Source: Synechococcaceae cyanobacterium RL_1_2
Lineage (GTDB): Bacteria > Cyanobacteriota > Cyanobacteriia > Cyanobacteriales > JAAUPO01
Direction: 5' to 3'
Assembly (NCBI GenBank): GCA_012033095.1
Contig: JAAUPO010000029.1
Span: 1 to 11,047 of the forward strand
Length of the DNA stretch: 11,047 bases
Of the stretch, positions 3,591-11,047 are shown piece after piece. The first letter of the stretch is position 1. Each line of letters starts with the position of its first letter. The notes beneath the pieces are model-generated. The model was not told the DNA's origin. It saw only the letters and a list, made by a program, of their open reading frames with translations, and ran no database searches. Position numbers and translations under genes: made by a program.

Positions 3591-3691
3591 ATACCAAATT
3601 GGCTTGAATAGGCAGCCTATGAATTTGTAAAAAGACGATATAGCAAGGATTTTACTATTGTATCGTCTGTTCTATTTTATAAAATTGGTAT
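3591..3691 (-). repeat. 101-bp MITE-like element, copy B
   Basis: This is the opposite-orientation partner of 1378-1478, of equal length, with 17 mismatches and no gaps. Its ends are ATACCAAATT and AAATTGGTAT, imperfect inverted repeats. Inside, AGACGATA and TATCGTCT (as read on the minus strand) form an 8-bp inverted pair, so the transcript could fold. The two copies bracket the ABC transporter gene. Confidence 0.75.
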
Positions 3692-3694
3692 TAC

Positions 3695-3757
3695 TTCATA
3701 GATCTAATTTATTTCATATTTCATAGATCTAATTTATTTCATATTTCATAGATCTAA
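3695..3757. repeat. 25-bp direct tandem repeats overlapping the 3' end of the replication gene
   Basis: Two exact 25-bp units (3695-3719 and 3720-3744; TTCATAGATCTAATTTATTT then CATAT) are followed by 13 bases of a third (3745-3757). The third contains the end of the replication gene: its TGA stop is at 3748-3746. Each unit has the 8-bp palindrome TAGATCTA. The repeats may be iteron-like, or simple duplications of the gene terminus. They lack spacers, so they are not CRISPR. Confidence 0.85.
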
Positions 3758-6731
3758 AGCTAACTGTACATAATCACCGTTATTGTTGGGGCCATTATTT
3801 TTGCCGTTGGGGGGATGATCGACCAAAGGACTCCAATGGCGAAATTGGTTAAACGATCGCCGATCGCGGTTCATCCAAATATGAAAGATCACTTCCCGAC
3901 CGTCCTGGGGGGGATTGATCGCGAATACTTTGACCCGTTTTTTGTCGATGGTTTGGGTGCGCAAAGGTTTGAGATGATAGCCTAACTTGGCGAGGATGCG
4001 ACGGACAATGGTGGGGGCACTATGGTTTTTAGCAATGCTAACCCCCAAGACTGTTTTTAAATAACTACGGTTGGCGATCGCGATCGCTTTCAAGTCATCT
4101 AGCTCCTTTTCGTTGCTATGGAGTTCGGGGGGAATGCGTTCTAGGAGTAATTTAACCCCCAATTTTTCTAAGGTACCAATTTTGATGCCTAGTTGGGATT
4201 GGTTAAAATCAGGCTGAAAAATGCTCCCTTCCCCTTGCTGAATTAGTTTATTCGCAGAAATATGGTCGCGATCGCTCAAAAATTGACGACCCCAAGTTAA
4301 AAAATAATGGAGCTGTAATTGTTGATACCAGCCCTGATCATCCTTAGTGACCAGTTGGGGGGTGACGGGGATATTATAACGAGCTTTTAACTCGTACTTT
4401 CTTAGACAACGACGCTGCTCATTCGTTTTAATTAACCGCTTTTGTAACAGTTCATATTCCTTGTCTTTAATATCCTTTGCCCCGGCGATCGCATCACATT
4501 CGGCTTGATAATTTTGCTCCTGGACTTCTTCAATGACCGCAATCAAATCCCCATCAATTTTTGTCACCGGAGCAGCTATGGACTGTAAAATTTCATGGCC
4601 ATCCTCTTCTAGGGAAGCTAACACCGCACTACGGTAACATTTCATTCCGGCATTGAGGCGCACAGACATTTTGGCCCAACAGAGTAAGGACTCCGCCTGA
4701 AATTCCGTATCCACATCATCCAACCCGATAAAATCCGATTGTTGCAACAGACGGATATTGGCCTGGGTTAAACGTTTACCAGAGCTAAGCAATTGGGGGA
4801 TCGAGGTGGAGCCATTACCCACCCGATTAAAACCAGAGGTGGCAATCCACACATGGCGGGGGATATTGGCCCTAATTCTTGCTAAGGATTGACAGACCGC
4901 CAGGCTGCAGATTGCACTCTGGCGATCGCCAGACAGAGGTGAAATGGTGATCCAGCTCAATACTTACTCCGGTTTCAATGGCGGGACTTGCCAGCACTAG
5001 ATCGTATTGTTGTAACACCCGATCTAATTTCGGAATGCAATTGTAGGCCCCATGCTTCGGATCAGCGATGGATTCAGAATCAATCCTGAGAATATTGAGG
5101 TGGGGAAATTGCCGTTGAAAATAGGATTCTAAGTTTGAGGGTTCCCCATTTACTGGTAATTTTTTGGGCCGATAGACACACAAAGGGTTTACCCCCTTGG
5201 CGAATATGGGTTTCCAAGGCATTGACTAAATTTTCTGGGTTGCGATCGTCGTAGTTATACACATCCCAACCCTGTTCTGGCTGCCATTGATTTTTAATCA
5301 CATAGGGCTGCAATTTCACCCCGGCCAAGGCCATTAAATAATCTAAGGACGTATCCGTTAAATCTGCATCGGCCACATATACTTGGCCACCTTTTCCCAA
5401 AACATTCTGCATCAAGATTTTGAGGGATTTTAAAATGGATACCCGACGATCCTTGCAGGTCGGGGAATTTAATCCATGCCATAGTACCTGTTCCACTTCG
5501 TCAATAATAACGACTCCATCCTGCCAAGAGTGAGCATCAAATTGGGCTTGGGATTGGGGGTGCAGGGAGTCAATACAAAGGCCAAATCCCTGGCGATATA
5601 CTTGGTTATAGTCGCTTACATCCTTAATGTAGGGCAATTTAAAACGATCGCAGAGGGATTGCACCAACTGCACCCGATGGCCAATGACCAAGACCCATTT
5701 ACCTTGGCGATGGGCTTGCCGCACCACTTTTTCTAAAAGCTTAGTTTTTCCAGTGCCCTTGGGGGATTTAATTGCTACTAATTTTCCCCCTGGGGTAGTT
5801 TAATTTTGCTGAGGTAGCGATCGCTAATTTCCCGCCGGGGGCTATAGGTTAATCTTTCTAGTAGGCGCGCTTTCCAGAGATCAAAGGGGAGAGCTTGTTT
5901 ATAGAGTTGATCAAACTCCTCCTTACCATGGTTAGCAATCAGATCATCTATCCCTTTGCCTTTGCGATCGTCCCAGGTAATAATTTTGACCGTACAATTC
6001 CGTTGCTCCAGTAAATAGGCCGTACGACGGATGGCCCCATTTACCGCTTCAACGGTTTTGGGTTTATGATCCTGGTCAAACACTATATATAGGGGGCGGT
6101 TTTGGTGGGCCAAGGGCAAAAGTTGGGCAATCAGATCGGCCCGACCTTGGAGGTTGCCATCTTGATCTTGATCGCGACGATAACCACCATGGACTCCTGG
6201 CAGGCCAATGGCCACATAGCCCGCACTTAATAACGCCCCTGCTTTCTTCGCTCCTTCTGTCAGACAAAGGGGAATGGAGGGATGCTTTAAATACCATTGC
6301 CAAAAACCGAGATCCGCCCGATATTCATTGATGTCATCGGGGGTTAATTCAATGCCATGGTGTTTCGCGATCGTTTCCCAGATCGCGAGGGGCACTTTGA
6401 GGGCAAACACCCCCGTCTTAGCACAGGGAGGATGTTCATACTTGATGGTTTTATCGCGATCGCGATCGACCCTCGGTGCGTTGGGTTTAAAGCACCCCCA
6501 TAATTCTTCCTCACCGCTGAGAATATCTACCCCAGAACACCACCATCCCCCTTTTTCCGTATGGGCATAACGGTTTAAAATTTGATAAGTAACCCGACCG
6601 TCGTTCCGTCGAGGCAAGCGATCGCCGTAGAGCAAATAGTCTAATGGCTCCGTCCCCTCCAGGGCAACAACGTTCATGGCAGTTAATTCATGGGAAACAG
6701 CACTGTCTCCCCACTCATCGAAATAGTTCAT
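3746..6731 (-). CDS. Plasmid replication protein, CyRepA1 type (DUF3854 TOPRIM-like domain plus helicase domain), frame-broken
   Basis: This is an initiator protein of cyanobacterial plasmids, about 995 residues after correction, the size expected for CyRepA1-type proteins. Residues 1-310 are the DUF3854 region: RRNDGRVTYQILNRY, GGWWCSGVDILSGEE, GCFKPNAPR, then a TOPRIM-like acidic set, with Glu in LTEGAKKAG near 160 and DxD in VFDQDHKP near 220. The helicase part follows: P-loop SPKGTGKT near 325, GHRVQLVQSL, motif II VVIIDEVEQ near 408, VADADLTD, motif V SPAIETGVSI near 584 and motif VI VCQSLARIR near 612. The C-terminus is basic and ends DYVQLALDL. The chosen start is ATG 6731 (MNYFDEWGD); there is no Shine-Dalgarno. 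Frame breaks: one base missing after GEN near 5783 (GAAAATTA); one extra A near 5146; two bases missing at about 4900-4935, between motifs V and VI. With these corrected the length is exactly 996 codons. A real pseudogene cannot be excluded. Confidence 0.88.
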
Positions 6732-6738
6732 GGCACAC

Positions 6739-6797
6739 TACACTATATCTAGGGTCATTATATGACGGATTTAGCAATATGCACTAGATATAGTGTA
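6739..6797. promoter_or_regulatory. 14-bp perfect inverted repeat enclosing the replication gene promoter
   Basis: TACACTATATCTAG (6739-6752) and CTAGATATAGTGTA (6784-6797) are perfect inverted copies separated by 31 bp. One arm covers the expected start of transcription and leader; the other covers the -35 region and beyond. The -10 box lies between them within a second dyad. This fits paired operators for copy control or self-repression, or an origin element. It starts 8 bases before the gene's ATG. Confidence 0.7.
6757..6762 (-). promoter_or_regulatory. Probable -10 box of the replication gene promoter
   Basis: On the minus strand the sequence is TATAAT, the exact sigma-70 consensus, 26 bases before the ATG at 6731. 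Initiation near 6750 would leave a leader of only about 20 bases. The -35 region, around AGTGCA at 6780-6785, is poor, as expected of a regulated promoter. The box sits inside the small palindrome GTCAT-TAT-ATGAC (6754-6766). Confidence 0.5.
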
Positions 6798-7403
6798 TTC
6801 GTCAATATTTCGTAAAACTTTTGTTGCCCTCATCTACGGCAATGGTCAATGGTAGTCCCACGGTAGGGATAGTCGTTTTACCTTGGACTCGTTGGGTTTA
6901 AAAGAATCAAAAATTTCTAGGGGCTGCAGTTTAAGCGATCGCGTTGAGCCCCAAAGAAAATTGCGATGGAGATTTTGCCCCAGGTGTTATCAAACAAATT
7001 GCTTGGGCGATGGGTTCTATTCTACCCCTTAAAAATAAAGGCGGTTATTAAAAAAATACGAGGGTTTAAAATTGATAATGCTATGGTGTTTTTCGGTGAT
7101 TGAGAAATCCTATAGTCTTTCTGAATAATTATGGGAAATAAGTAGAGCTGAAATCATTCTATAGCCATCCCAAATAGCTTGTGGCAATTGAGTACATTGA
7201 AAGCCAAGTCTAGGAAGGATCTTCATGTTATGGCCTAGTTAGAACTGCTATATGGCAAGAAGAAAAAATCCCACACTAAATCCAATTGACTATAAAATTT
7301 CAATAAGTTCAAAAATTCGTCCTAAAAACTCAACCGTTGATTATTGCAACAAACAATAGATTAAATCTCATTGTTATTGTCGCGCTTTGACTCCGCTCAG
7401 CCC
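6798..7403. other. Intergenic stretch upstream of the replication gene, no convincing gene
   Basis: This is AT-rich, with stops in all frames. The longest candidate is a 38-codon frame on the plus strand (6935-7051) with no good start. One HIP1 site lies at 6935-6942. Because it lies upstream of a plasmid initiator gene it could hold origin functions or a counter-transcribed RNA, but no iteron array or clear promoter pair is visible. Confidence 0.5.
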
Positions 7404-7542
7404 TAAGAACGTATTTGAAAAGTATCAACTGTTGTGGAGTCGCCCCCTAAATCCCCCAATTTGGGTGACTTCATTGGTTAAAATCTAGGTGATTTCCACC
7501 AAAATCGGGGGCATGGGGGGCAGCTTTTCAAACATCCTCTAA
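7404..7542 (+). repeat. C/G-rich MITE-like element, copy 1
   Basis: The outer ends are imperfect inverted repeats: TAAGAACGTATTTGAAAAG (7404-7422) against CTTTTCAAACATCCTCTAA (7524-7542), 14 of 19 paired. Just inside are GCCCCCTAAATCCCCCAA (7442-7459) and TCGGGGGCATGGGGGGC (7505-7521), able to pair imperfectly. There is no coding capacity. It lies 36 bp beyond the stop of the DUF2232 gene, so transcripts of that gene would run into it. Confidence 0.65.
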
Positions 7543-8419: not shown

Positions 8420-8441
8420 GCCCGAATGTTAAAATCAGGGA

Positions 8442-8577
8442 TTAGAAGCTGTTTATAAAATCAATTTAATTTGCATTTTGCCCCCTAAATCCCCCAAAGT
8501 TGGGAGATTTTTAATGATTTTCCAAGAATTTCTCCCCCAGCATTGGGGGCAGGGGGGCTTTATCAATCAGCTCTTAG
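8442..8577 (+). repeat. C/G-rich MITE-like element, copy 2
   Basis: It has the same architecture as 7404-7542. Imperfect outer inverted ends (TTAGAAGCTGTTTATAAA near 8442-8459; TTTATCAATCAGCTCTTAG near 8559-8577) surround the identical 18-bp block GCCCCCTAAATCCCCCAA (8480-8497) and the G-rich arm TTGGGGGCAGGGGGGC. The two copies flank the DUF2232 gene in the same orientation. Confidence 0.6.
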
Positions 8578-8726
8578 GTTATAAGTTCAAATCGCTAGGG
8601 TTGAGACAAGTCAAAAGCCTAGCTATTTGAACAAAAGTTAATCTATAGCTGTAACTTTTTGATTTGGCTTAATCAAGCCCTCCAAACGCAGGGGATGTAA
8701 GGGGTAGTATTACGTCACTGCTTGAA

Positions 8727-10437: not shown

Positions 10438-10600
10438 TCATTCTAACCTGTTTACTTCAGAAATTACCGGAGGCCGATCGCGGTTCTGATGGCGAATAAT
10501 TTCACCCATGGGAGTTTCACCATCCCCGATCAATTGTTCTCCTTGGTCAAAAATAGGTTTCAGACTTGACCTGACCCCCTTAGTACCGGACAAAAACAGG
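10438..10600 (-). pseudogene. C-terminal fragment of an unidentified protein, cut by a MITE
   Basis: One minus-strand frame reads KPIFDQGEQLIGDGETPMGE then IIRHQNRDRPPVISEVNRLE and stops with TGA at 10440-10438. Composition and the polar/hydrophobic pattern look like real protein, and a HIP1-like GCGATCG lies in it. Upstream the frame meets a stop in the end of the 122-bp element (10598-10719), and nothing coding continues on the far side, so the 5' part is lost or moved. It ends 48 bp before the start of the solute-binding protein gene. I do not recognise the family. Confidence 0.45.
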
Positions 10601-10719
10601 ACTTACGCAAAAATTTCGATTCTGTCTCCTGGGAACCATGATGTTTGGGGATATTTGGGGATAATCGTTCAAGCAAGTCCCCAAATTTGGGGGATTTAGG
10701 GGACTTGTGCGTAAGTCCT
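10598..10719 (+). mobile_element. 122-bp MITE with 12-bp perfect terminal inverted repeats
   Basis: AGGACTTACGCA (10598-10609) and TGCGTAAGTCCT (10708-10719) are perfect inverted ends. Inside are a tandem 10-bp repeat, TTTGGGGATA (10644-10663), and a hairpin with 9-bp arms, CAAGTCCCC (10674-10682) and GGGGACTTG (10699-10707). Ends of this type recur in cyanobacterial intergenic regions. There is no coding capacity, so it would depend on a transposase in trans. No clear target duplication is visible. Confidence 0.75.
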
Positions 10720-11047
10720 AAAAAATCAACAACAGAAGACTAAGATCGGTTATAAGATTTACGAGATAAGGCTTTTGAGCTTATTAGGCTAAATTCTTGT
10801 CGAGAAAACCTAACTACAGGACAAAAACCTTAAACCCTTGCCACATCAGCACTCTAGTGAAATCGGTTGTAATCTTTACCGTGTAAAGCTCCCAGACCTA
10901 TTTACTGTTTTGGTAGTCCTATACAAGTAAGGATCAGGAAGATTAAACCCCTTGATAATCAATTATCCTGGGTCTAAATATCCTTACAGCTTTAGCACTA
11001 CCACCGTTTTTTGCGCAACTTGTGTCCTAGTAGTTAGCGGGTACTAA
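10720..11047. other. Terminal stretch without recognisable features
   Basis: All six frames are interrupted by stops and no tRNA or known RNA signature was recognised. The only structure noted is an 8-bp inverted pair, GTAAGGAT (10927-10934) and ATCCTTAC (10980-10987), of doubtful meaning. Confidence 0.5.

Follow-up and report, generated by a model that had tools for sequence, protein, structure and literature searches.

A chromosomal-type CyRepA gene with paired upstream dyads in a cyanobacterial contig, a candidate autoregulated initiator or primosome-like helicase

The window analyzed here is the whole 11,047-nucleotide contig JAAUPO010000029.1 (C484) of Synechococcaceae cyanobacterium RL_1_2, whose assembly (GCA_012033095.1) comprises 2.88 Mb in 495 contigs and is 61.7% complete. 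Its main feature is a gene of the CyRepA family, which lies, as the original prediction described, between an ATP-binding cassette (ABC) exporter and a DUF2232 gene, a heavy-metal P-type ATPase and an oligopeptide-binding protein being further neighbors (Table 1). The earlier family call, based on a DUF3854/TOPRIM-like module followed by a helicase module, was right: the motifs then cited (LTEGAKK, FDQD, SPKGTGKT, DEVEQ, ETGVSI, and ARIR) are all in the sequence, and in the profile search then proposed as a check the piece at 5778-6731 matched PF12965 (DUF3854) with 169.5 bits (cut-off 23). The other three pieces cover positions 24-208, 204-271, and 282-593 of the 595 of the NF042913 (CyRepA1) model, with scores that singly remain below the curated cut-off of 200 and add up to 431; three intact orthologues scored 509, 539, and 558 bits against the same model, and DUF3854 was present in 48/48 orthologues. 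An N-terminal DUF3854 followed by a helicase is the domain order of the CyRepA1 family, and is also described for CyRepA1 in the accessible part of PMC10079941.

The gene could be aligned near full length with five intact relatives in four frames (48-63% identity), and we therefore regard it as complete except for three frame changes, which are located near 5784-5790, 5119-5198, and 4900-4929. The corrected length of 995 residues given earlier agrees with the approximately 950-1050 residues of the intact relatives. Fold comparison of the C-terminal region of an orthologue gave a winged-helix likeness without a clear fold match, and an Rfam search gave no match at the gathering score. The helicase part of one relative (L086) matched the phage family phrog_4913 (replication) in PHROGs with E=2.1e-34, a helicase type that phages also have.

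Table 1. Features of the CyRepA locus in the window.
Feature	Coordinates	Strand	Basis or remark
Chromosomal-type CyRepA gene: TOPRIM-like DUF3854, superfamily 2 (SF2) helicase, and C-terminal winged-helix-like region	3746..6731	-	Four frames, three indels
DUF3854 / TOPRIM-like domain	5919..6305	-	PF12965, E=4.1e-50, residues 143-271 of the first piece
Helicase motor part 1 (Walker A SPKGTGKT, DEVEQ)	5080..5784	-	NF042913, 182.6 bits; alignment with intact relatives
Helicase motor part 2 (ETGVSI)	4929..5198	-	NF042913, 61.9 bits; alignment with intact relatives
Helicase end (Q..ARIR) and C-terminal region	3749..4900	-	NF042913, 186.7 bits; alignment; fold of the corresponding part in an orthologue
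Dyad 1 of control element (consensus CACTA-N4-TAGTG)	6739..6756		Score 21.0; 41 bp from dyad 2
Dyad 2 of control element	6780..6797		Score 21.3
TATAAT, candidate -10 box between the dyads	6757..6762	-	By eye; -10-like words cluster beside the dyad in the clade
Third dyad match, within the TOPRIM-coding part of the gene	6079..6096		Score 22.2, highest in the window

A scan of genome contigs gave 224 relatives, the best 80 of which (a choice that favors close ones) were kept as the 80 clade loci. Trees were constructed from 107, 108, and 53 rows, the second with 20 redundant rows removed and the third from 53 chosen rows, and the window gene was entered as a column-by-column read-through of its frames. 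It was placed inside one clade with a support of 100 (100/100 in the careful 53-row tree), and none of the plasmid proteins included in these trees (0/15, 0/15, and 0/13) was inside this clade, whose members are found on 16 genomes that consist of a single contig (1.4-7.9 Mb) and in records titled chromosome, including those of Picosynechococcus PCC 7117, Planktothrix rubescens, Arthrospira PCC 9108, and diatom endosymbionts. The C-terminal piece of the window gene alone had matches in 27/40 genomes, its own included, the closest being about 50% identical and several lying on single-contig genomes. Within the clade, Moorena, most Spirulina, Okeania with Trichodesmium, Planktothrix, and Microcystis were each grouped together, and Crocosphaera and putative UCYN-A genomes were joined next by the diatom endosymbionts. 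This taxon-wise grouping argues for mainly vertical descent, and the view that the clade is a chromosomal lineage inherited broadly along taxonomy is well supported by the trees. Shared gene neighborhood was rejected as proof of vertical descent, because a run of common neighbors was found only in two genomes (G009/G037) and at most single families elsewhere, and the tree was used instead. The window gene joins the Pleurocapsales on a long branch (0.8), the support for this placement being modest (89, 93, and 89/55). With carriage judged on the clade and not on the window contig, a plasmid location of the contig itself is unlikely, and the either/or in the original prediction, in which the window is a large plasmid or a chromosome into which a plasmid replicon has integrated, proved unsupported. 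One locus in the tree (L070), from a metagenome-assembled genome named Candidatus Gracilibacteria (SU_1_2), stands beside Hydrococcus and is probably a mis-binned cyanobacterial contig.

The nearest outgroup of the clade in the 53-row tree consists of two plasmid proteins, and the NF042913 match marks a likeness to CyRepA1 (Slr7037) of the Synechocystis plasmid pSYSA and to Rep of pAQ1, both of which are 38% identical to one clade member (L034). Unlike these two proteins, the clade members are chromosomal, form a clade of their own, and have paired upstream dyads and no ssr7036. There were 232 PLSDB plasmid records that matched a clade member, all at less than 60% identity (49.5% for the best among the 60 listed); the identity of the 80 clade loci is 51-94%. 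In a comparison with the 14 of these 232 records that were fetched, ssr7036 (E<=1e-3) was found in pSYSA only and was absent from the window, the 80 clade loci, and the other 13 plasmid loci, and its absence from the latter indicates that the upstream ssr7036/asRNA1 copy-control feature is special to pSYSA. A ParA homologue was found near one of the 80 clade loci (L054), at E<=1e-3 with partial ParA queries and flanks of unequal length. There is also a second chromosomal lineage, with copies 38-41% identical over the first approximately 730 residues in genomes searched of the groups f33, f21, and f31, of which f33 is probably Nostocaceae-type. This lineage forms its own 100/100 clade, and the plasmid proteins are placed between it and the main chromosomal clade; on such a topology, at least two captures by chromosomes, or escapes onto plasmids, are implied, and either direction may apply.

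Chromosomal homologues as such have been reported: according to the accessible text of Ohdate et al. (2024), CyRepA homologues are present on the chromosomes of 80/145 cyanobacteria, with their function unvalidated and validation called for (PMC10899382). The window-type gene is very probably among them. The main text of that paper, as accessible, gives no clade or control element for these homologues and has no occurrence of DnaA, UCYN, or endosymb. What the present trees add is that one large set of these genes forms a separate, chiefly vertical lineage.

The second characteristic of the clade is the control element upstream of the gene. At least 8 of the 10 half-site letters were found within 200 nt upstream in 71/81 clade genes, versus 29/405 shuffles and 53/779 control windows, and the two best sites were 39-42 bp apart, mostly 41 bp, in 68/81 clade genes (6% in shuffles), the spacing being 31 bp in Picosynechococcus and Limnothrix. 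The window has two strong dyads at the former of the two spacings typical of the clade (41 or 31 bp). The second copy is often degenerate (among the 68, 28 score at least 10, 17 score 5-10, and 23 score below 5), and the spacing is therefore the chief evidence for it; spacing in steps of whole helical turns suggests that two bound dimers may touch. When matrices were trained without the group being tested, the groups having been defined by hand, a site scoring at least 15 was found in 67/81 genes versus 9 sites elsewhere in 1.42 Mb. The weak groups in this test were Okeania/Trichodesmium (5/9), the Hydrococcus set (3/5), the mixed rest (13/16), and Planktothrix (0/5). Next to the dyad, words resembling a -10 box recur at constant distances from it in as many as 21/81 loci, versus a maximum of 9 in 100 shuffles. 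No in-gene match scoring at least 17 was found in the 80 clade loci, and the third match in the window is therefore probably due to chance.

Dyads elsewhere in the genomes were considered as marks of a second origin and rejected as background only, the 69 exact matches in 25 single- or few-contig genomes comparing with 51 for a reversed control. Among these 69, 22 lie at the gene and 2 more approximately 1.1 kb before it in one genome (G274), by our own reckoning of gene starts. As far as sequence comparison goes, the dyads are tied to this one gene. None of the 14 plasmid CyRepA1 loci had a dyad scoring at least 15 (top 10.4), and the exceptions outside the clade were L046 (15.1 at -187) and, weakly, the pAQ1-like plasmid L049 (13.4). 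Among genomes of the second lineage, a clear dyad pair with a spacing of 31 bp is present in one f21 genome; in three f31 genomes there is a single dyad each (13.7-15.6), and any partner, at 32 bp, is very weak at most. The f33 loci (L227-L234) have, instead of dyads, a different conserved sequence upstream of the CyRepA gene, which by eye reads CCGATGTATC...GAAGTA, with GCGTGCTAAGGTTTTA near the gene start. The dyads are also gone from the Planktothrix loci L088, L092, L093, L099, and L123 and from L221, L222, and L224, which have another common upstream sequence instead; the genomes G138 (L093), G251 (L092), and G202 are also without dnaA.

The third characteristic is the presence of the gene in genomes without dnaA. 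Among 13 genomes tested, four diatom-endosymbiont chromosomes and P. rubescens carry the gene, and dnaA was not seen in them. The same holds for both putative UCYN-A genomes, G287 (1,443,806 bp) and G299 (1,491,611 bp), which are sister to Crocosphaera in the tree. Between these two, the CyRepA gene gave nonsynonymous (dN) and synonymous (dS) distances of 0.065 and 0.80 by NG86 and of 0.061 and 1.07 by YN00, values that indicate a gene kept under purifying selection in DnaA-less symbionts. Loss or dispensability of dnaA has been reported several times in cyanobacteria, and the accessible text of PMC7198777 names no replacement.

Comparison thus supports the family, the domain order, the chromosomal clade, the paired dyads tied to the gene, and its retention under purifying selection in DnaA-less symbionts, and we infer that the protein itself may bind the dyads, regulate its own gene, and act in chromosome initiation, priming, or restart. 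Our proposal is that the window gene is an assembly-broken copy of a gene for an autoregulated chromosomal initiator or primosome-like helicase, and taken as a whole we give it an even chance of being correct. The protein, probably in the form of cooperating dimers, would bind to a pair of palindromes that lie 3 or 4 helical turns from each other in the promoter of its own gene; this binding would keep its own expression low, and would mark a place where, or set a level at which, the protein opens DNA and assists in priming the replication of the polyploid chromosome independently of DnaA. A stronger form holds that chromosomal CyRepA is the main DnaA-independent initiator of cyanobacterial chromosomes, a plasmid-type protein captured at least twice (the main and Nostocales clades), which made DnaA dispensable and works in DnaA-less endosymbionts including the UCYN-A/nitroplast lineage; this form we consider unlikely, if still worth stating. 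The likeness to DnaA-oriC is in the proposed role alone, chromosome initiation. In contrast to DnaA, no match to a DnaA model was seen in profile scans of the window pieces and intact orthologues, and the gene coexists with dnaA in 126/145 genomes carrying it. In the literature searched, with most subscription papers and bioRxiv preprints outside the coverage, we found neither CyRepA as a chromosome initiator nor the dyad pair or a link to DnaA-less symbionts; four exact dyad words led to one paper, on an unrelated matter.

Several results weigh against this proposal. Among 388 genomes of the order, the gene was present in 19/64 dnaA-minus and 126/324 dnaA-plus genomes (p=0.20; p=0.16 when the genome of the window is included), and dnaA loss was rejected as a predictor of the gene. 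The presence threshold of 1e-130, above which are 145 genomes, was set after seeing a gap (450 vs 424 bits), and the window's own genome, which has dnaA in two matches, falls below it (2.2e-63) on account of its fragmented gene and was scored as lacking the gene; the 64 dnaA-minus genomes are the complement of the 324 listed as dnaA-plus, and 20 listed negatives agree. A search with the complete protein gave no CyRepA homologue at E 1e-5 in three dnaA-minus genomes (G013, G016, and G129). CyRepA is therefore not a universal replacement for DnaA, and since these three genomes are nearly complete and neither dnaA nor CyRepA was found in them, another way of starting replication probably exists. 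An origin at the gene was likewise unsupported by skew: in 40 of the 80 loci, with at least 8 kb on each side, the skew at the flanks changed in the expected direction in only 13/40; the putative UCYN-A skew was not significant (p=0.27); and in PCC 7117 there was no change at the gene (GC skew 0.012 before and 0.000 after; plus-strand genes 84/162 and 59/115). The accessible text of PMC7198777 places the origin of PCC 7002 near dnaA, and in the related PCC 7117 the CyRepA gene is about 233 kb from dnaA, so that skew and distance count against the gene's own locus as the main origin there. The skew test is weak, because irregular skew is reported for species of this group in the accessible part of the same paper.

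A different reading, tentative in our judgment and yet a serious one, is that of a repair or restart enzyme, a vertically inherited chromosomal primase-helicase that would rescue or restart forks like PriA with no fixed origin, the dyads being the operator of a separate regulator. The lack of an origin signature at the gene, the absence of the gene from some lineages, the -10-like boxes adjoining the dyads, and weak matches to PriA-type and IGHMBP2-type helicases in two intact orthologues are all consistent with it, but dyads tied to one gene would be unusual for a separate regulator, and for the plasmid relative Slr7037 a role in replication is proven according to the accessible text of PMC9978351. 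Moreover, the top and longest solved-structure match is an origin-binding helicase, the UL9 protein of herpes simplex virus 1, which shares the SF2 helicase fold and binds the origin according to entry titles. It differs in identity (15%) and in the root-mean-square deviation of 15.6 A over a long alignment, and the aligned part begins after DUF3854; L118, with stops in frame, was left out of the structure alignments.

A decaying pseudogene with genuine frame changes, which the count of three such changes and the long branch might suggest, is an improbable reading of the window copy. Genes with frame changes numbered 8/26 in 20 sampled contigs plus the window of the same assembly (5/22 without the window, by subtraction), versus 1/41 and 0/46 in two sets of other assemblies, with the reading frames of a putative UCYN-A genome as queries; the indels are assembly-wide and not special to the CyRepA gene. 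The dnaA of the same genome likewise gives two matches, and both dyads are intact. Least probable of all is that the contig is a large plasmid or carries a recently integrated one, for which the NCBI family name, the plasmid outgroup, and the single ParA neighbor might be cited, but against which stand the plasmid-free clade broadly following taxonomy, the chromosomes of reduced symbionts that carry the gene, the lack of ssr7036, and the separation of the exporter and DUF2232 genes by 0.27-3.2 Mb on one large contig in at least eight relatives (G007, G009, G012, G013, G016, G032, G037, and G039), which indicates that the window order did not arise from an insertion between two ancestrally adjacent genes.

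The window also contains dispersed, MITE-like (miniature inverted-repeat transposable element-like) repeats of about 100-150 bp at 1375-1478, 3591-3694, 7402-7542, 8429-8578, 10594-10727, and 10911-11003, the first two of which form an inverted pair (83%) flanking the ABC exporter, with further copies on contigs C6, C36, C239, C351, C362, and C466 of the same assembly. Two 25-bp tandem copies (96%) at 3692-3741 lie immediately downstream of the CyRepA stop codon.

As to how DnaA-less or DnaA-indifferent cyanobacteria start copying their chromosomes, the proposal that the gene is an autoregulated initiator or primosome-like helicase would offer a specific candidate that comes with a well-delimited DNA element and can be studied in a tractable host, Picosynechococcus; the gene is also retained in strongly reduced genomes that lost dnaA. 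Even if it is not an initiator, it is still a widespread chromosomal gene, and the NCBI family name "plasmid replication protein" can mislead the calling of plasmids from contigs.
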